Below are positions 20,460 to 49,785 of a stretch of DNA of 64,000 nucleotides, piece after piece. The notes beneath the pieces are model-generated. The model was not told the DNA's origin. It searched no databases and was given only the letters and a program-made list of their open reading frames with translations. Position numbers and translations under genes: made by a program. This stretch comes from Thauera aromatica K172 (GTDB lineage: Bacteria; Pseudomonadota; Gammaproteobacteria; Burkholderiales; Rhodocyclaceae), in assembly GCF_003030465.1 (NCBI RefSeq), contig NZ_CP028339.1, forward strand, positions 2,852,001 through 2,916,000. Reading direction: 5' to 3'. Every line of letters starts with the position of its first letter. Position 1 is the stretch's first letter.

Positions 20460-22025
20460 TTACGCTTGCGCAGCCGCTTGCTTTCTGATCGGCAGCAGTT
20501 CGTCGATGCGGCTATTGGGCCAGGTCGGTAGCTTCTCGAGCGTATCGGCAAGCCAGGTCAGCGGTTCGAAGCCATTGGCGCGCGCCGTGGCGAGCAGGGA
20601 TTGAACCACGGCGGCACGCTTGCCGGCGGCTTCGGAGCCCGCAAACATCCAATTCTTCTTGCCCAGGGCGATCGGCCGGATGGCGTTCTCGATCGGGTTA
20701 TTGTCGATCGGCCAATCGCCGCGACTCGCATAGCGCGCGAGCGCCGGCCAGCGCTTCAAGCTGTAGTCGATGGCGCGGGCGAGCGCCGCACCGTCGGCCA
20801 CGGTCTTGCGGGTCTGCACCAGCCACAGGTACATCGCCTCCAGGCGCGGCTGCGCGTACTGCAGTCGCAGTTCGGCGCGCACCTTGACCGAAACGTCGCG
20901 GGCCTGCTCTTCGAGCGCGTACAACTCGCCGATGCGCGCGAGTGCCTCGGCCGCGACCGGGCTCTTGTTCGCCTGGTGAAGCTCGAAGTACTTGCGTCGT
21001 GCGTGCGCCAGACAGGCAAGCTCTCCGATGTCGCCACCGAACAGGGCCTTATAGCCCCCGTAGTCATCGACCATGAGCATGCCCTTCCAGCCTTTCAGGA
21101 AGGCCTGGGGGTATTGCCCGCCGCGACCGGGCTGGTAATCGAAGATGACGATGGGCGGGTCGGCATCGAGTGTGTTGCTGCGGTAGGCCCACAGATACGC
21201 CCGCTTGGTCTTGCCGCGCCCCGGATCAAGTTGTTCGACCGGGGTTTCGTCGGCATGCAACACGTTGCCTTCGCGCAGGCGCTCGATCAGGCGATCGCAC
21301 AGCGGCGCGAGCGCCACCCCGATCCGCCCGACCCACTCGGCCTGCGTCGAGCGCGGTAGCGGCACCTCGCTGCGCGCGGCGATCTGCTCGATCCGGTACA
21401 GGGGCAAATGATCGACGAACTTGCTCACCGTCACCCACGCCAGCAGCCGCGGCGCAGCCATCCCGCCGTCGATGATCGCCGCCGGCACGGGCGCGGCCGA
21501 CACCGTCTCGCAGCGCCGGCACGCGTACTGCGGGCGGATGTGGCGATGGACGAAGAATTTGGCCGGGATGATGTCGAGCTGCTCGGAGACGTCCTCGCCG
21601 ATCTTGACCAGATCCTGCCCGCACTGACCACAGGTGCACGATTCAGGTTCGTGGCGATGTTCGATGCGCTCGAGGTGTGCCGGCAGCGCAGGCCGTCCGG
21701 CACGCGGGCGCCTCGGGCTCGCCGGCGGCGCCTCGGGCGGAGTCTCGCGCAGCGCTTCGAGGCGGGCTTCGCAGGCGGCCAGATCGGCCGCGAGCGTCTC
21801 GTCGAACAGATCCTTCATATCCGCCGCCCGGGCCTCACTGCTGGCGCCGAAACGCAGGCGCTTGAGCACGGCGATCTCATGGACCAGCGCTTCGATCTTG
21901 ATCTTGCTCAGCTTGAGTTCGGCTTCGAGGCGGGTCACATCAGCCGCCTGCGCGACCCACCTCTGAACCTGCTGCACGAGCTCGGGCGGCAGGTCGAAAG
22001 CAGTCAGTTGCGCAGCGGAATCCAT
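20460..22025 (-). CDS. tnpC: IS66-family transposase TnpC
   Basis: A 521-aa DDE transposase of IS66. An N-terminal coiled-coil/leucine-zipper region ([20 protein letters not shown]) leads to a zinc-binding segment (CTCGQC ... CRRC). The catalytic core follows ([42 protein letters not shown]), and a C-terminal IS66_C domain ([16 protein letters not shown]) closes it. The start MDSAAQL at 22025 is preferred to an upstream ATG 13 codons earlier. The gene is intact, but with one terminus missing the element cannot move by itself. Confidence 0.92.
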
Positions 22026-22121
22026 GCCGGAATTATACCCGAATAACGCGCTACATCCCAGCATCTACAAGGGTTTCAGGCTCTTTTGCGCAGCGGATCG
22101 TGGATGGTTTCGGCGCACCGA

Positions 22122-22460
22122 TCACACCTGCCAGTGGGCCGGTGCCGCGGCGCTCAGGCGCTGCCACTCGACCCCCGCCACGAGCCACTGCCATTGCTCG
22201 GCCGACAGCGCAAACACCGCGTTGTCGGCACGGGGCCAGCTGAAGCTGCCCCGATGCAGGCGACGCTGACTCAACCACACCCCGGTGCCGTCCCACACCA
22301 GCACCTTCAGGCGCGTGCGCGCCCGGTTGATGAAGGCGTAGGCACTGCCGTCGCACGGGGCGCGCCCCAGGCTGTTCTGCAACCGTGCCGACAGGCCGTC
22401 GATGCCCAGACGCATGTCGATCGGCTCGACCGCCAGCCAGATCTGATCGGGCGAGATCAT
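22122..22460 (-). CDS. tnpB: IS66 accessory protein TnpB (Orf2)
   Basis: 112 aa with the family signature IWLAVEPIDMRLGIDGLSA, YAFINRARTRLKVLVWDGTG and W..QRRLHRG, the usual length of TnpB. The ATG at 22460 overlaps the TGA of the tnpA remnant (TGATG), the typical coupled arrangement. It lies 96 bp upstream of tnpC. Confidence 0.92.
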   Translation of the reverse strand: MISPDQIWLAVEPIDMRLGIDGLSARLQNSLGRAPCDGSAYAFINRARTRLKVLVWDGTGVWLSQRRLHRGSFSWPRADNAVFALSAEQWQWLVAGVEWQRLSAAAPAHWQV

Positions 22461-22525
22461 CACGGCGCCTGGTGCGCGAGCACTTCGGACAGCCACGACG
22501 CCGACGGCAGCGTAGCGAACTCCAC
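22460..22525 (-). pseudogene. IS66 tnpA, C-terminal remnant
   Basis: In the frame whose TGA overlaps tnpB, the minus strand reads EFATLPSASWLSEVLAHQAP before running into antisense aminotransferase sequence. A closing W-L-x-x-x-L helix is common at the end of IS66 TnpA. Everything upstream, including the helix-turn-helix and the terminal repeat, is gone. The assignment rests on position and the coupled stop more than on sequence. Confidence 0.5.
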
Positions 22526-23438
22526 CTTGTACGGCACCCGCTACGACGTCGAGCACGAGATCACGGTCACCGCCGGCGCCACCCAGGCGCTGTTCACCGC
22601 AGTCACCGCCTGCGTCCGCCCGGGCGACGAAGTGATCGTGTTCGAACCGGTGTACGACTCTTACGCGCCGGCGATCGAGCTAGCCGGCGGCACCGTCGTG
22701 CGCCTGCAACTCGCCGCCCCCGACTACCGCCCGGACTGGGCCGCCGTGGCCGCAGCGATCACTGCGCGCACGCGGATGATCATGATCAACACCCCGCACA
22801 ATCCGACCGCCACGGTGTGGACGGCGGACGATCTCGACCGCCTCGCCGCACTCGTGCGCGACACCGCCATCGTCGTCGTCGCCGACGAGGTCTACGAGCA
22901 CATCGTCTTCGACGGCGCCACCCACGCCAGCTGCGCCCGCCACCCGGAACTGGCCGCACGCAGCTTCGTGGTGTCGAGCTTCGGCAAGACCTACCACATC
23001 ACCGGCTGGAAGGTCGGCTACATCCTGGCGCCGCGCGAGCTGATGGCCGAATTCCGCAAGGTGCACCAGTTCAACGTGTTCACCGTGAACACCCCGGTCC
23101 AGCTCGCGCTCGCCGACTACATGAGCGAGCCTGCGCGCCACACCGGCCTGGCGGCGTTCTACCAGGCCAAGCGCGACTTCTTCCGCGACGCGCTCGCCGA
23201 CACGCGCTTCGAGCTGCTGCCTTCGCGCGGCACTTATTTCCAGCTCGCCCGCTTCGGTGCAATCTCCACCCTGCCCGACACCGCCTTCTGCGAATACCTG
23301 ACCCGCGACATCGGCGTCGCCGCGATTCCGCTGTCGGCCTTCTTCGCCGACGGCCGCGACGAGCGCGTGGTGCGCTTCTGCTTCGCCAAGACCGAAGCCA
23401 CGCTCGCCGCCGCCGGCGAACGCCTGCGCCGGGTCTGA
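22521..23438 (+). pseudogene. Class I/II PLP aminotransferase (methionine aminotransferase type), 5'-truncated
   Basis: About 305 codons from LYGTRYDVEHEITVTAGATQ to the stop, matching residues about 75-385 of YbdL/methionine-type aminotransferases. The PLP lysine lies in SSFGKTYHITGWKVGY, the phosphate/PLP site in NTPHNPTATVW and VADEVYEHIVFDG, and the closing motif in VVRFCFAK. The N-terminal 70-80 residues, including the usual SQGFPDF region, are lost at the IS66 junction. The frame stays open leftward only as antisense of tnpB. Being directly upstream of mtnA, it probably once supplied 2-keto-4-methylthiobutyrate transamination (inference). Confidence 0.85.
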
Positions 23439-23492: not shown

Positions 23493-24563
23493 ATGTTCGT
23501 ACAACCGATTCCCACCCTGCGTCGCGAGGCCGACACGCTCGTCATCCTCGACCAGACCCTGCTGCCGTTCCGCAGCGCAACCGTCGCCCTCGCCTCCCTC
23601 GAAGCCGCCGCCGACGCGATCCGCCACATGCAGGTGCGCGGCGCGCCGCTGATCGGCGCCACCGCGGCCTTCGGCGTCGCTCTCGCCCTCGCCCGCGGCC
23701 GCGCCGACGACGCCGTGCTCGAACACGCCCTCGCCGTGCTCGGTGCCACCCGCCCGACCGCGGTCAATCTGCACTGGGCACTGGCGCGCATGGCCGACGT
23801 GCTGCGCCCGCTGTCGGCGCCCGCCCGCTGCGCCGCGGCCTGGGCCGAAGCCGAGGCGATCCGCGCCGACGACGCCGCGACCTGTGACGCCATCGGCCGC
23901 CATGGCCTGGCGCTGATCGCGGCGATCGCCGCCCGCCGTCCCGGCCCGGTGCGCCTGATGACCCACTGCAACGCCGGCTGGCTCGCCACCTGCGGCGCCG
24001 GCACCGCGCTCGCCCCGGTCTACGCCGCCCAGGCCGCCGGCATCGCGGTCGAGGTCGTGGTCAGCGAAACCCGCCCGCGCAACCAGGGCCTGCTCACCGC
24101 CTGGGAGCTGCGCGCGGCCGGCGTGCCGCACACGCTGATCGCCGACAACGCCGCCGGCCTGCTGCTGATGCGCGGCGAAGTCGACCTCGTGATCACCGGC
24201 GCCGACCGTGTCGCCGCCAACGGCGACGCCGCGAACAAGGTCGGCACCTATCTCAAGGCGCTCGCCGCGCACGCCGCCGGCGTGCCCTTCTACATCGCTG
24301 CGCCGCATTCGACGCTCGACTTCGGCTGCCCGGACGGCCGTGCGATCCCGATCGAGGACCGCGGCGCCGACGAGGTCTGCCGCATCCGCGGCCTCGCCGC
24401 CGACGCCACAATCGCCGAGCTCAGCCTCGCCCCCCCCGCCACCCGCGCCGCCAACCCGGCCTTCGACGTGACCCCAGCCGCGCTGATCGCCGGCATCGTC
24501 ACCGAGCGCGGAATCGCCGCCCCCGGGCACCTCGCCGCGCTCTACCCGGAGCAGGCACGATGA
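23493..24563 (+). CDS. mtnA: S-methyl-5-thioribose-1-phosphate isomerase
   Basis: A 356-aa isomerase of the eIF2B-like family converting methylthioribose-1-phosphate to methylthioribulose-1-phosphate. Motifs are HMQVRGAPLIGATAAFG near the N-terminus, the catalytic cysteine in MTHCNAG, and the catalytic aspartate in VITGADRVAANGD. Length and motifs are complete. It overlaps the next gene by ATGA, so the pair is coupled. Transcription may now depend on whatever reads across the truncated aminotransferase; no own promoter was recognised in the 54-bp gap. Confidence 0.95.
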   Translation: MFVQPIPTLRREADTLVILDQTLLPFRSATVALASLEAAADAIRHMQVRGAPLIGATAAFGVALALARGRADDAVLEHALAVLGATRPTAVNLHWALARMADVLRPLSAPARCAAAWAEAEAIRADDAATCDAIGRHGLALIAAIAARRPGPVRLMTHCNAGWLATCGAGTALAPVYAAQAAGIAVEVVVSETRPRNQGLLTAWELRAAGVPHTLIADNAAGLLLMRGEVDLVITGADRVAANGDAANKVGTYLKALAAHAAGVPFYIAAPHSTLDFGCPDGRAIPIEDRGADEVCRIRGLAADATIAELSLAPPATRAANPAFDVTPAALIAGIVTERGIAAPGHLAALYPEQAR

Positions 24564-25282
24564 AGGCGGCGGCAATGAAAGCGGCCGATCTCCCGGCGCT
24601 GCGCGACGCCCTCCTCGACACGATGCGGGCGATGGGCGAAGCCCATCTCAACGTCGGCACCGCCGGCAACGCCAGCGTGCGCCTGGACGAGCCCCGTCCC
24701 GATGAGGGCGGCCACGGCCGCGCGCCGCGCATGCTGATCACCCCCAGCGGACTGCCGGTGCCGCGCTGCACCGCCGACGACATGGTGATCGTCGACGCCA
24801 ACGGCAGCTCCCTCGGCGCCCTCGCTCCATCCTCCGAGTGGCTGCTGCACCGCGACCTCTACGCCGCCTTTCCCGCCGCCGGCGCGATCCTCCACGCTCA
24901 CGCCCCATTCGCCACCGCGCTCGCCTGCCAGCGCCTCGACATCCCGCCCTTCCACTACATGATCGCGCGCTTCGGCGGGCCGACCATCCGCTGCGCGCGC
25001 TACGCCACCTTCGGCACCCAGGCCTTGTCGGACGCCGCGGTGGCCGCGCTGCACGAGCGCAACGCCTGCCTGCTGGCCAACCACGGCATGGTCGTGTTCG
25101 GCCGCGACCTCAGCCATGCGCTCGCGCTCGCGATCGAATTCGAAACCCTGTGCGAGCAGTACTGGCGCACCCTCCAGCTCGGCAACCCGGTGCTGCTGTC
25201 GGCGGCGGAAATGGCAGAGGTGATCGAGCGCTTTCGCTGGTACGGCAAGCCGCGCGGGGCAGGTACGGATTCGGATCATTGA
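24560..25282 (+). CDS. Class II aldolase (probable methylthioribulose-1-phosphate aldolase)
   Basis: A 240-aa zinc-dependent aldolase of the FucA/AraD fold. The catalytic glutamate lies in SSEWLLH, the metal ligands in HAHAPF and the C-terminal ANHGM histidine. GNASVR and LITPSGL form the phosphate pocket. This pattern is aldolase-like rather than MtnB dehydratase-like, which lacks SSEW. Coupled to mtnA, it fits the DHAP shunt (Ald2-type cleavage of methylthioribulose-1-phosphate to DHAP and a methylthio-aldehyde). A dehydratase role cannot be ruled out from sequence alone. Confidence 0.8.
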   Translation: MKAAAMKAADLPALRDALLDTMRAMGEAHLNVGTAGNASVRLDEPRPDEGGHGRAPRMLITPSGLPVPRCTADDMVIVDANGSSLGALAPSSEWLLHRDLYAAFPAAGAILHAHAPFATALACQRLDIPPFHYMIARFGGPTIRCARYATFGTQALSDAAVAALHERNACLLANHGMVVFGRDLSHALALAIEFETLCEQYWRTLQLGNPVLLSAAEMAEVIERFRWYGKPRGAGTDSDH

Positions 25283-25434
25283 TGCTTGGCCGGGCTACGT
25301 GCCCTCGATCACCCGCGCCACATCAAATCGATCCCCACCGTTGGCGGGCGGGCTTGGTAAAAATGGGCAGCCCGAGTTCGACAGTTACGCTTGCAAGTGT
25401 TTGTTTTTGCTAGAGCGCACTTTCAAAAATGCCA

Positions 25435-26091
25435 CTACAACAGCGCCAGCTGCTCCGGCACCGCTGGTTTTCCTATCCTTAAGGCATGAAGCACCTCGTT
25501 CTGCTCCGTGCTGATCGTCGACACCCCCGCCACCGGCTCGCCGCCGTTCAGGCGCACGCGGTGATGCTGAATGCGCTGCAGTTGCTCGAGCGCCCGCTCG
25601 GGCGTGTAACCCGCGTCGGCGGCCTTGAGGCGGCTACGCATCACCCGATGCAGGATCAGCGCCATGAAGCAGATCGACGCATGGGCGCGAATCCGCTCGG
25701 GCAGACGGTGATACACCGGGCCGATCTCGATCTCGGACTTGAGCACCTTGAAGCCGCGCTCGATGTCGACGAGCGACTTGTAGCGCTGAATCACGTTCTG
25801 GGCGGACAAGCCCTCGGCGTTGGTGACCAGGAGCAGCTTGCCGTCCATCATTTCTGCGAGACGCTTGGCCTTGTCGTCGATGGGGTAGCTGAACAGCTCC
25901 TCAGCCAGATCCACCTTGATGATGCGCGACAGGTGCGCCTCGCTGACCGCGTGGTAAAAGCGCGCCTTGGCGCCGCTGTCCGAGAGTTTGCGGCCCCGGT
26001 GCTTCACGCCTTCGTCCCGCTCGGTGAGCTTGCCCGTCCATTGGTCCGCCTGGCGGGTCAGCGCGTCGATAGACGAGTGACAAGCAGCCGC
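25435..26091 (-). pseudogene. IS1634/IS4-type transposase, N-terminally truncated
   Basis: About 215 codons match the C-terminal half of IS1634-family DDE transposases: GVKHRGRKLSDSGAKARFYH, LVTNAEGLSAQNVIQRYKSL, DIERGFKVLKSEIEIGPVYH, RIRAHASICFMALILHRVM. The catalytic glutamate is in DIERGF; the two aspartates lie in the missing N-terminal half. The break is near 26090, where an unrelated 170-bp stretch starts before higB. No terminal repeat was identified, so the remnant is probably immobile. Confidence 0.8.
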
Positions 26092-26255
26092 CGACACACT
26101 CAGCATTGATTACGGTGCCAAAAACTGCTGGCGGAATACGGAACTGAACCCACGTCCGTGTATGAGGTTCGTTAGGAAAGCACGGTTCTTGAGGACGCCC
26201 GCCTCTATCAAATGGCCGTTTTGCATCCTGAAAAACCGGTTGAACCAGCCCAAAA

Positions 26256-26284
26256 TTGCGGCAGTCCCAAAATGGGACTACACT
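26256..26284 (+). promoter_or_regulatory. higBA promoter with operator palindrome
   Basis: TTGCGG (26256-26261), 17 bp and TACACT (26279-26284) form a sigma70 promoter. AGTCCCAAAATGGGACT (26263-26279), a perfect 7+3+7 palindrome, fills the spacer and touches the -10, ideal for repression by HigA. The expected transcription start is at about 26291, one base from the higB ATG (26292), so the message may have no leader. Confidence 0.75.
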
Positions 26285-26291
26285 GTAACCA

Positions 26292-26594
26292 ATGCGAGTC
26301 ATTGCCGTGTCCACCCTTCGAGCATTTTGGGAACTGCACCCTGATGCCGAGCAGCCACTGAAGGCTTGGTACGAGGAAGCGACGCTCGCATCCTGGACCC
26401 AGCCCGCCGACATCAAAGCGCAGTACCGCAGCGCCAGCGTGCTGAAGAACCGTCGTGTGGTCTTCAACATCAAAGGCAATGACTATCGACTGATCGTAGC
26501 CATTGCTTACAAGTTACAGATCGTCTACGTGAAGTTCGTCGGCACCCACAAGGAGTACGACGCTGTCGACGCAGAAACCGTTGAAATGGCCTGA
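26292..26594 (+). CDS. higB: HigB-family mRNA interferase toxin
   Basis: A 100-aa RelE/HigB-superfamily toxin predicted to cleave mRNA on the ribosome. It matches HigB_toxin: a basic helix then VLKNRRVVFNIKGNDYRLIV, IVYVKFVGTHKEYDAVDAE. The His and Asp/Glu at the end of the fold are preserved. There is no Shine-Dalgarno site upstream and the promoter lies immediately before the ATG. It precedes its antitoxin by 18 bp, the toxin-first order typical of hig loci. Confidence 0.92.
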   Translation: MRVIAVSTLRAFWELHPDAEQPLKAWYEEATLASWTQPADIKAQYRSASVLKNRRVVFNIKGNDYRLIVAIAYKLQIVYVKFVGTHKEYDAVDAETVEMA

Positions 26595-26612
26595 CCGGCC
26601 ACGGAGGAAAAC

Positions 26613-26984
26613 ATGGACATCCGCCCTATCCACACCGAAGCAGACTACAAGGCCACGCTCAAAGAGATTTCGGCCTTGATGGAGTCCGACCCTGATCTGG
26701 GCACGCCGGAGGGTGATCGCCTGGACATCCTAGCCACACTGGTGCAGGCCTACGAGGCCAGGCACGTTCCCATTACTGCGCCGGATCCGGTGGAAGCCAT
26801 CAAATTCCGGATGGATCAGAGCGGGCTGTCCGTCAAAGATCTTGAGCCCATCATTGGCAAGAGCAACCGCGTCTACGAAGTCCTGAGCCGCAAGCGCCCG
26901 CTCACGCTGGCCATGATCCGCAGATTGCACAAGAGTCTGGGCATCCCGGCCGATGTGCTGATTGCGGAGACGGCTACAGGGTGA
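26613..26984 (+). CDS. higA: HigA antitoxin with HTH domain
   Basis: A 123-aa antitoxin. The N-terminal part (IRPIHTEADYKATLKEISAL) resembles HigA proteins that pair with HigB. The C-terminal XRE-type helix-turn-helix (EAIKFRMDQSGLSVKDLEPI, SNRVYEVLSRKRPLTLAMI) should bind the palindrome upstream of higB. GGAGG precedes the ATG. Immediately after its stop (26984) the sequence enters a broken CRISPR repeat at 26993. Confidence 0.93.
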   Translation: MDIRPIHTEADYKATLKEISALMESDPDLGTPEGDRLDILATLVQAYEARHVPITAPDPVEAIKFRMDQSGLSVKDLEPIIGKSNRVYEVLSRKRPLTLAMIRRLHKSLGIPADVLIAETATG

Positions 26985-26992
26985 TCGTCGAA

Positions 26993-27072
26993 CCACGCAC
27001 GTGGGGAACGCCACTCCTGCATTTGCAGACCGTCCAGCTCACGCGGTTCATCCCCACGCACGTGGGGAACGC
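26993..27072 (-). CRISPR. Type I-E CRISPR relic: one full and one partial repeat
   Basis: A 29-nt repeat at 27044-27072 has the I-E form CGGTTCATCCCC ... GGGGAACGC with a CCCCACG-CA-CGTGGGG stem. Its last 19 nt are repeated exactly at 26993-27011. Between them lies a spacer of exactly 32 nt, the I-E size. The first 10 nt of the left repeat are replaced by sequence next to higA. Repeat polarity implies transcription on the minus strand with the leader on the right. No third repeat is found in either direction and no cas gene is in the window. Confidence 0.8.
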
Positions 27073-27181
27073 TCTTGGTGGTGGTCTCGGTGTCACTGAC
27101 CGCCACAACAGAGCCACCGATGATCGGCGTATAGAAGCCACTTGAACCAAGGCTATTTTCTGTAGTTCCCCGAGTAATGTC

Positions 27182-27411
27182 GCTCTGACACCAGGGCCTC
27201 CGCACTCGGTTTACATAATATGTCTATGGATTTAATCAATAAAATCAAGGCGCCGAGCGATATCGCCTGAATGTTTCTCTTAGCCGAAGCCAGCGAACTT
27301 TGGTTCCTTTTCCGCTCACTGCAATTCGGGCTCAGCGAGGAGTGTATTTAGTATCAGTTGCTTGGCGAGCGCTGGCGCGATGATGTTCGAGTGCGGAGGC
27401 CCTGCTCTGAC
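27182..27411. mobile_element. 214-bp MITE-like insertion with 16-bp inverted repeats and 8-bp direct repeats
   Basis: AGGGCCTCCGCACTCG at 27193-27208 is exactly inverted at 27388-27403. GCTCTGAC flanks the unit at 27182-27189 and 27404-27411, consistent with an 8-bp target duplication. Three extra bases (ACC) separate the left direct repeat from the left inverted repeat. The interior is AT-richer and has no plausible gene. It lies directly after the stop of the lipoprotein gene. No matching full-length IS is present in the window. Between the CRISPR relic and this unit (27073-27181) I see no gene; this may be the CRISPR leader. Confidence 0.6.
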
Positions 27412-27413
27412 GC

Positions 27414-27665
27414 TTACTCTCCATCCTCGCCGACCGCCGCATCGACCCCGGCCGCGGCCACATCGACGGTGGTCTCGACCACCGTCGCCCCGATCTTGAC
27501 TGCGGTCACGCCGACGGTGACCACGGCGTCGGCCACCGCCACCACCGCGCAGCCCTGCAGCAGCACGGCCAAGGCCACGCCGACCAGCACCAGACCAGAC
27601 CGCGGCACCGCCCCGCACCCGGGACGGGCGCTCGCCGCGACGGCGCTGCCGCGCCCCTCAGCCAC
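27414..27665 (-). CDS. Small lipoprotein (NF038104-like)
   Basis: An 83-aa putative lipoprotein. A basic N-region and hydrophobic stretch (SGLVLVGVALAVLLQGC) end in a lipobox, followed by AVVAVADAVVTVGVTAVKIG and an acidic tail. This is a pattern found in many short proteobacterial lipoproteins of unknown function. It starts with GTG at 27665 and overlaps the stop of the upstream dehydrogenase (GTGGCTGA). An internal GTG nearer the hydrophobic segment is an alternative start giving a more normal signal peptide. Confidence 0.7.
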   Translation of the reverse strand: MAEGRGSAVAASARPGCGAVPRSGLVLVGVALAVLLQGCAVVAVADAVVTVGVTAVKIGATVVETTVDVAAAGVDAAVGEDGE

Positions 27666-28524
27666 GCCCGCCTTCGAGCACGCGCAGCAGGCTGGAGGTG
27701 TCCTCCCGCCCCCAGCCCGCGCCCATCAGCGCGTTGAGCTGTTGCCAGACCTGCGCCGCCACCGGCAGCGGCGCCCCGAGCCGGGCAGCCTCGTCCATCA
27801 GGAGGGCGAAATCCTTGTGGTGCAGGCGGGCCTCGATGCCGGCGCCGAAGTCGCGCTCGACCATGCGCTGCCCCATCACCTCGAGCACCCGCGACCCTGC
27901 CGAACCGCCCATCAGCGCACTGCGCACCGCGGCGACATCGACGCCGTGCACAGCGGCAAGGCGGACGGCCTCGGCGCAGGCCTGGATCGTGCTGACCATG
28001 ATCATCTGGTTGCACGCCTTGGCCACCTGCCCGGCGCCGGGCGGGCCGATATGGACGATGCGCCGCCCCAGCACCGCGAGCAGCGGGCGCACCCGCTCCA
28101 GCGTCGCCGCCTCGGCGCCGGCCATGATCGCCAGGCTCGCCTCGTGCGCGCCCTGCGCCCCGCCCGATACCGGCGCATCGACCCAGCCCACGCCGCGCTC
28201 GGCATAGCGGGCGGCGAGCATGCGCGCGCTCGCCGGCGCGATCGTGCTCATGTCGACATGGACCGCGCCGGGGCTGAAGCCCTCGGCCAGCCCGTGCGCC
28301 CCGAACGCCAGCGCCTCGACATCGGCGCTGGCGGTGACCATGGTGATGACGACTTCGCTGCGCGCCGCGAGCGCGGCCGGGGTCGCGCACACTGGCACCC
28401 CTTCGGCAACGAACGCCGCCGCTTGCGGCCGCCGCGCCCACAGCGCGAGTTCATGGCCGGCAGCGAGCAGGTGGCGCGCCATCGGCGCACCCATCACGCC
28501 CAGCCCGATAAAACCCACTTTCAT
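27658..28524 (-). CDS. NAD(P)-dependent beta-hydroxyacid dehydrogenase (paralogue 1)
   Basis: A 288-aa member of the 3-hydroxyisobutyrate dehydrogenase / tartronate semialdehyde reductase family. The N-terminal Rossmann motif is GFIGLGVMGAPMARHLL, the substrate motif is DAPVSGGAQGA, and the catalytic lysine lies in GAGQVAKACNQM. The C-terminal helical domain carries HHKDFALLMDEAARLG. AGGGG precedes the ATG. It follows a paralogue by 51 bp in the same direction. The substrate cannot be told from sequence. Confidence 0.9.
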   Translation of the reverse strand: MKVGFIGLGVMGAPMARHLLAAGHELALWARRPQAAAFVAEGVPVCATPAALAARSEVVITMVTASADVEALAFGAHGLAEGFSPGAVHVDMSTIAPASARMLAARYAERGVGWVDAPVSGGAQGAHEASLAIMAGAEAATLERVRPLLAVLGRRIVHIGPPGAGQVAKACNQMIMVSTIQACAEAVRLAAVHGVDVAAVRSALMGGSAGSRVLEVMGQRMVERDFGAGIEARLHHKDFALLMDEAARLGAPLPVAAQVWQQLNALMGAGWGREDTSSLLRVLEGGRG

Positions 28525-49634: not shown

Positions 49635-49676
49635 CCTGGCGTTGACTTGATCAACCCTGGCGTTGACTTGATCAAC
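49635..49676. repeat. 21-bp tandem duplication between rpmJ and rpsM
   Basis: Two perfect copies of a 21-bp unit (49635-49655 and 49656-49676) are followed by a partial third copy that runs into the rpmJ 3' end. Each unit contains GTTGATCAAGTCAAC, a small GTTGA/TCAAC inverted repeat. The second copy includes the rpmJ stop codon, so the array looks like slippage of the gene end. Confidence 0.8.
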
Positions 49677-49785
49677 CCTGGCGCTGCTTGTGCCGCGGAT
49701 CGCTGCAAATTACGCGAACCACTCCCTTGCGGCGAACGATCTTGCAATTGCGGCAGAGCCGCTTTACCGATGCCTGGACTCTCAT
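49672..49785 (-). CDS. rpmJ: Ribosomal protein L36
   Basis: 37 aa: [20 protein letters not shown] then [17 protein letters not shown]. The zinc ribbon is complete (Cys11, Cys14, Cys27 and His32), so it is the C+ form. GGAGC lies before the ATG. It sits between infA and rpsM as in the spc/alpha junction of related bacteria. Confidence 0.95.

Follow-up and report, generated by a model that had tools for sequence, protein, structure and literature searches.

A type I-E CRISPR relic between a higBA cassette and an IS21-family terminus in Thauera aromatica K172

The relic and its repeat

The window, by which we mean the whole 64,000-nt stretch of Thauera aromatica K172 DNA that was analysed, holds a short piece of CRISPR DNA that is probably the inert relic of a type I-E array, one that had a cas operon to its right and was lost in place between an aldolase gene and a lipoprotein-like gene. 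The piece is recognisable by two identical 19-mers, at 26993-27011 and 27054-27072, whose spacing is 61 nt. An exact shared core of 19 nt, with 32 nt between the repeats, had been described in the original prediction and was confirmed at both coordinates, as was the loss of the first 10 nt from the left repeat, which consists of the last 19 of 29 nt and begins at 26993, with the higA stop (26984) 8 nt before it. The relic has four parts:

26993-27011, minus strand: left repeat, 19 of 29 nt, assigned by identity with the right copy and cut by the higBA cassette
27012-27043, minus strand: sole complete spacer, 32 nt, between the repeats
27044-27072, minus strand: complete 29-nt type I-E repeat, assigned by identity with the repeats of other arrays, the I-E cas neighbours of those arrays and a hairpin
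27073-27090, minus strand: about 18 nt, a remnant of the following spacer or else further array DNA, between the end of the repeat and the IS21 tip

The strand given is the predicted crRNA strand, taken from the orientation of the cas genes in L096, a Derxia lacustris locus, and in the relative G041. A 29-nt repeat and a 32-nt spacer give a period of about 61, which is the spacing found here, and the crRNA strand of the full repeat folds as RNA into a 7-bp hairpin (-12.8 kcal/mol). One repeat is complete and the other has 19 of its 29 nt, so the pair falls short of the two complete repeats expected of an array, and no leader adjoins the first repeat, the tip of an IS21-family element lying about 18 nt from the full copy. 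What is present is I-E repeat DNA, visibly truncated and without cas genes of its own. Between 26900 and 27500 there were no promoter-like sites and one terminator-like site, near chance level. The Rfam family Chlorobi-1 matched weakly over the repeat hairpin (E 0.62; 14.4 bits against a gathering cut-off of 50) and was rejected.

In 100 Markov simulations of the window, no pair of identical 19-mers arose within 100 nt. The real window has two such close repeats, the relic pair and a short tandem repeat at 49635-49683, where a 21-nt unit in tandem yields 10 identical 19-mer pairs at a spacing of 21. Stronger evidence than this simulation came from an exact scan for the 27-nt core of the repeat in one genome per species, over 84,980 species. 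It returned 11 stretches, every one of which carries the full 29-nt repeat, with 26, 2, 2, 35, 9, 32, 17, 16, 16, 39 and 27 copies of the core (at least nine in 9 of the 11) that are mostly 61 or 62 nt apart. The stretches come from Derxia lacustris (three), Rhizobacter, Ramlibacter and Methanoregulaceae (two each), Zoogloeaceae (one) and a Burkholderiales record (one). Cas neighbours were looked for in two of the 11 at the curated NCBIfam cut-off: the array of L096 has Cas1e, Cas5e, Cas6e, Cas7e and Cse1 beside it, and that of L101, from a Rhizobacter metagenome-assembled genome, has Cas7e, Cas6e and Cas1e, all above the cut-off. The full repeat of the relic is therefore identical over 29 of 29 nt to the repeats of arrays with I-E cas neighbours. 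This agrees with the proposal of a decayed type I-E array, and 26993-27072 is, as judged from its sequence, a real type I-E CRISPR relic.

As had been suggested with the original prediction, the rest of the genome (two contigs, 3,711,792 bases) was searched for a second array with the same repeat or for I-E cas genes. No such array was found, there being no further copy beyond the relic of a 21-nt core at up to two mismatches and none of the exact 12-nt right half of the core. Nor were I-E Cas7 (Cas7e, PF09344) and I-E Cas6 (Cas6e, PF08798) found; absence of an I-E system from the genome is read from Cas7e, Cas6e and Cas1. The single Cas1 of the genome belongs to another locus:

G000:C1:3232700-3243100 (L103), at 3.23-3.24 Mb: type I-C CRISPR-Cas locus with Cas3, Cas8c, Cas4, Cas1 and an array

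In the I-C array a 28-nt stretch recurs exactly at least 33 times, mostly at intervals of 66-69 nt, and the repeat differs from that of the relic. The locus is unrelated to the relic, and the CRISPR system of this strain does not match the relic repeat.

The spacer

The lone spacer had been put forward as a possible record of an old target, a reading for which we found no convincing protospacer in viral contigs, phages, the best 20 of 68 plasmid records or the genomes of the genus. Viral contigs gave no match to an exact 30-nt spacer pattern, to its 22-nt seed half or to any of three patterns in which every third base was left free. With blastn the spacer matched one phage record (E 3) and 68 plasmid records, the best 20 of these 68 at E 0.7 to 9; in four of the 68 the match spanned 80% or more of the spacer (27 nt, 85% identical, E 9), and we took the phage and plasmid matches to be at chance level. 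Across 29 genus genomes, the one match at up to three mismatches was the spacer itself. Spacers aimed at cas genes have been described for E. coli. Against 16 loci, made up of I-E loci, arrays and the strain’s own I-C locus, the best match of the spacer had 11 mismatches, compared with 10-13 in 60 shuffles, and that of the 18-nt partial spacer had four, compared with 3-5 in shuffles; cas genes were rejected as targets of either.

The left junction

To the left of the relic, the window carries the following features:

24560..25282, plus strand: class II aldolase gene, the left flank (Pfam Aldolase_II; 95% identical to G041:1943146-1943854)
25366..26106, minus strand: IS1634-family element, truncated, with an open frame to 26106 that retains the C-terminal portion of the transposase (DDE_Tnp_1; IS1634 annotation in plasmid matches)
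26126..26990, plus strand: higBA cassette with a few downstream bases of its own (90% identical to G018:C87 over 26126-26989)
26292-26594, plus strand: higB (Pfam HigB_toxin)
26613-26984, plus strand: higA (named from its position; in plasmid matches HigB is accompanied by an annotated transcriptional regulator or HTH protein)

The aldolase gene is one that we take to be mtnB-like, the IS1634-family piece is 92% identical to L038 over 25366-25520, and higA matched nothing in Pfam or NCBIfam. The cassette recurs in G017, in G013 and at a second place in G041, kept in each from 26256 to about 26969-26984. Past the higA stop, G018, G017 and G041 continue with other DNA, and the cassette stops no more than two or three bases short of the truncated repeat. 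The left cut of the array is thus the end of the higBA cassette, and the fusion of the array’s left edge to higBA, as first proposed, is borne out by G018, which has the same cassette up to 26989 and then diverges. Around higBA in G018, G017, G041 and G013 (L107, L042, L045, L016) there was no repeat of the window or G041 type at up to seven mismatches. Further left in the window, at 20460-23438, an IS66-family element stands against a class I/II aminotransferase gene that has no start and whose homology to the G041 copy begins only at 22525.

The right junction

To the right of the relic lie, in order:

27091..27147, no strand: IS21-family (istAB) terminus, 57 nt, with the body missing (six other copies in relatives)
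27148..27181, no strand: 34 nt in common with the interval between the lipoprotein-like gene and cas3 of G041, the putative far side of a deletion
27182..27404, no strand: MITE-like element with inverted ends (inverted repeat and second copy; edges not certain)
27414..27665, minus strand: small lipoprotein-like gene, the right flank (93.6% identical to G041 from 27424 on; named by look)
27658-28524, beyond the lipoprotein-like gene: hydroxyacid dehydrogenase gene (NAD_binding_2 and NAD_binding_11)

The right cut of the array, which the original prediction lacked, is the IS21-family tip near 27091. Six other copies of this tip in relatives end in the same terminal letters and have different outer flanks, and one full copy from the relatives encodes IstB (IstB_IS21); most copies share two G before the tip, whose edge is therefore uncertain by up to 2 nt further left. 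The genome has no second tip at up to three mismatches, which makes 27091-27147 the sole copy. Since the element starts near 27091, at most about 18 nt to the right of the repeat (27073-27090) can be array, and the idea that a further target is recorded in the 32 nt following the full repeat is accordingly unsupported.

Beyond the tip, the 34 nt align to the G041 interval with a score of 41, where the highest of 500 shuffles scored 22 and 21 loci from 20 relatives without CRISPR at the site scored 12-17; in BLAST the match to G041 is 86% identical with E 0.001. This match is consistent with the loss of leader and cas operon by deletion, and about two bases are common to both sides of the joint. 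No traces of cas genes were seen at the relic site. A deletion from inside the IS21 copy is the simplest reading of the right junction and explains the loss of the cas genes better than the arrival of the IS1634-higBA block does; the original view that this arrival cut the array keeps its force for the left edge and is incomplete as to the cas genes. The MITE-like element has a second copy at G000:1510463-1510684 (1.51 Mb; 86%) and possibly a 7-bp duplication, CTCTGAC, at 27183-27189 and 27405-27411. The lipoprotein-like gene has no match in Pfam.

The site in the genus

In G041 the flanks are 91-95% identical to those of the window, with 18.4 kb between them against 2.2 kb in the window. The 18.4 kb contain cas3, Cse1, Cse2, Cas5e, Cas1e, Cas2e, Cas7e and Cas6e together with an array of 69 exact copies of the first 28 nt of its repeat. 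This array is placed towards the aldolase gene and shares the strand of the cas genes. In the window, too, the relic is on the aldolase side of the scar, with a predicted crRNA strand that, relative to the flanks, is that of G041. Related arrays are not lacking in the genus, an absence on which the original prediction might have foundered: G041 has one at this site, and G003, G004 and G020 have arrays with similar repeats. At L033:7769-7827 in G041, an IS21-family copy interrupts the I-E array beside a broken-off repeat, in the same direction as the copy in the window.

In 20 of the 29 genus genomes the aldolase and dehydrogenase genes stand next to each other with no array between them. The gap between the two matches is 8-489 nt in 19 of them, six of which have a lipoprotein-like match between the flank genes, and 1,046 nt in G006, where it holds what is presumably a REP-type transposase. 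No repeat of the window or G041 type was found at up to seven mismatches in the site loci of these 20 genomes. Seven of the 29 stand outside this count: the genes are on different contigs in G004 and G010, the aldolase gene is at a contig end in G015 and G020, and it was not found at length in G011, G019 and G044. Cas7e occurs in 5 of the 29 genomes and Cas6e in 6, in G024 only as a 63-aa frame. This frame (L113, G024:C212:1575-1718) matches 48 residues of Cas6e and is possibly another I-E relic.

Over its 29 positions, the relic repeat differs from the repeats of G041 and G010 at 8 and 10 and from those of G004, G020 and G003 at 3, 3 and 4. Cas1e of Derxia is 78-84% identical to the proteins of Rhizobacter, G004, G020 and G003 and 36% identical to those of G041 and G010. 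For Derxia Cas7e the values are 77% with Rhizobacter, 69% with G003, 36% with G010, 33% with G004 and 32% with G041, and 37% and 49% with the two pieces of the G020 protein; for Cas5e they are 57% with Rhizobacter, 51% with G003 and 31% with both G004 and G010, with no match in G020 or G041. Because these identities conflict, Cas1e, Cas7e and Cas5e disagree on any single grouping of the operons; the relic repeat, as sequence, points to a Derxia-type I-E system. The Cas7e gene of G020 (G020:C29:1821-4741, L035) is split, its two pieces separated by about 1.7 kb, and 67 array repeats lie on the same contig. In G004 a lone I-E-like repeat at L049:7585-7613 (G004:C43) has three mismatches to the window repeat, with no second copy at up to six mismatches in 11.9 kb.

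Discussion

From the repeat identity, both cut points, the absence of I-E Cas7 and Cas6, the shared 34 nt and the site and orientation in G041, all of them observed, we infer an array lost in place with its own cas genes, and an order of events. The original array would have stood between the aldolase and lipoprotein-like genes, with its cas operon on the right. The IS1634-higBA block would have replaced its leader-distal part, and an IS21-family element would have inserted into the array; a deletion running from inside this copy to just short of the lipoprotein-like gene would then have taken the rest of IS21, the leader-proximal array, the leader and all cas genes, and the MITE would have inserted beside the scar afterwards. 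With no leader and no I-E Cascade, the relic should make no working crRNA. Loss in place is favoured by the complete I-E operon that G041 has between the same two genes, with its array on the same side and strand. Against it stands the lack of any visible trace of cas genes at the site. The G041 repeat also differs at 8 of 29 positions and G041 Cas1e is 36% identical to that of Derxia, so that G041 is not simply the undeleted ancestor; the 34 nt, moreover, may be older intergenic DNA of the species pair, outside any CRISPR island.

An alternative that we consider rather improbable is that the array piece arrived already broken in a mobile mosaic of IS1634, higBA and IS21, or was a second, free-standing array served by cas genes at another place that have since been lost. 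The neighbours of the relic on both sides are indeed mobile or cassette DNA, and its repeat is closer to those of the cas loci of G003 and G004, which are at other sites, than to that of G041. However, site, side and strand agree with the complete locus of G041, the DNA to the right of the IS21 remnant is G041-like, and the higBA loci of the four relatives examined carry no window- or G041-type repeat at up to seven mismatches. Very unlikely, in our estimate, is a remainder of G041’s I-E system whose repeat changed by mutation. It would account for the agreement in site, side and strand with G041, the relative with the most similar flanks, but 8 of the 29 repeat positions differ where the flanks are 91-95% identical, and the relic repeat is exactly that of arrays whose Cas1e, in Derxia, is 36% identical to that of G041; given this repeat difference and this Cas1e identity, the relic is most likely not G041’s own system undone. 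Next to no probability attaches to chance or to a dispersed palindrome without relation to CRISPR, for although there are just two copies, one of them partial, they occupy the only two places in the genome, are spaced 61 nt apart and are exactly identical to array repeats with I-E cas neighbours.

Either, then, a Derxia-type system stood here and another entered this site in the G041 line, or a broken array was carried in. We suggest, as a doubtful possibility, that the site is a landing place where I-E systems replace one another, an orphan array having been targeted by a distant I-E system in the G041 line. If so, the relic would be the left-over of the first occupant, with the second occupant in the sister species. 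On any reading, one chromosomal site carries I-E DNA of two types in related species.

Comparison with known systems

The relic has close known counterparts in L096 of Derxia lacustris and L101 of the Rhizobacter genome, where the 29-nt repeat is identical to that of the relic, the period is mostly 61, and the array lies beyond the Cas1e end of the cas genes, with the crRNA strand the same as the cas strand. These arrays are longer and have cas genes, whereas the relic has a single full repeat and part of another, and neither leader nor cas. The I-E locus of G041 (L032, L033) shares the two flanking genes, the side and the strand and has also been hit by an IS21-family element, but differs in its complete cas operon, its repeat (8 of 29) and its distant Cas1e.

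Precedent comes from degraded CRISPR/cas loci of Escherichia and Salmonella. Touchon and Rocha (2010, PMC2886076) describe arrays of which only relics survive, with few repeats left, IS elements flanking both sides of regions of cas loss in E. coli genomes, and arrays that might outlive their cas genes and offer a hotspot for integration. The precedent fits a Derxia-type system here first and another later in the G041 line, and the present case is a new example without a new principle, IS elements at cas deletions and arrays outliving cas being already described there. The likeness lies in these features and in the few-repeat relic; the difference is that the bacterial group is another one and that both break points are seen here at the level of single bases. 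The joints show a route of CRISPR-Cas loss in which a toxin-antitoxin cassette lies to the left and an IS-bounded deletion to the right. As a case of CRISPR loss it is ordinary, but its joints are unusually clear.
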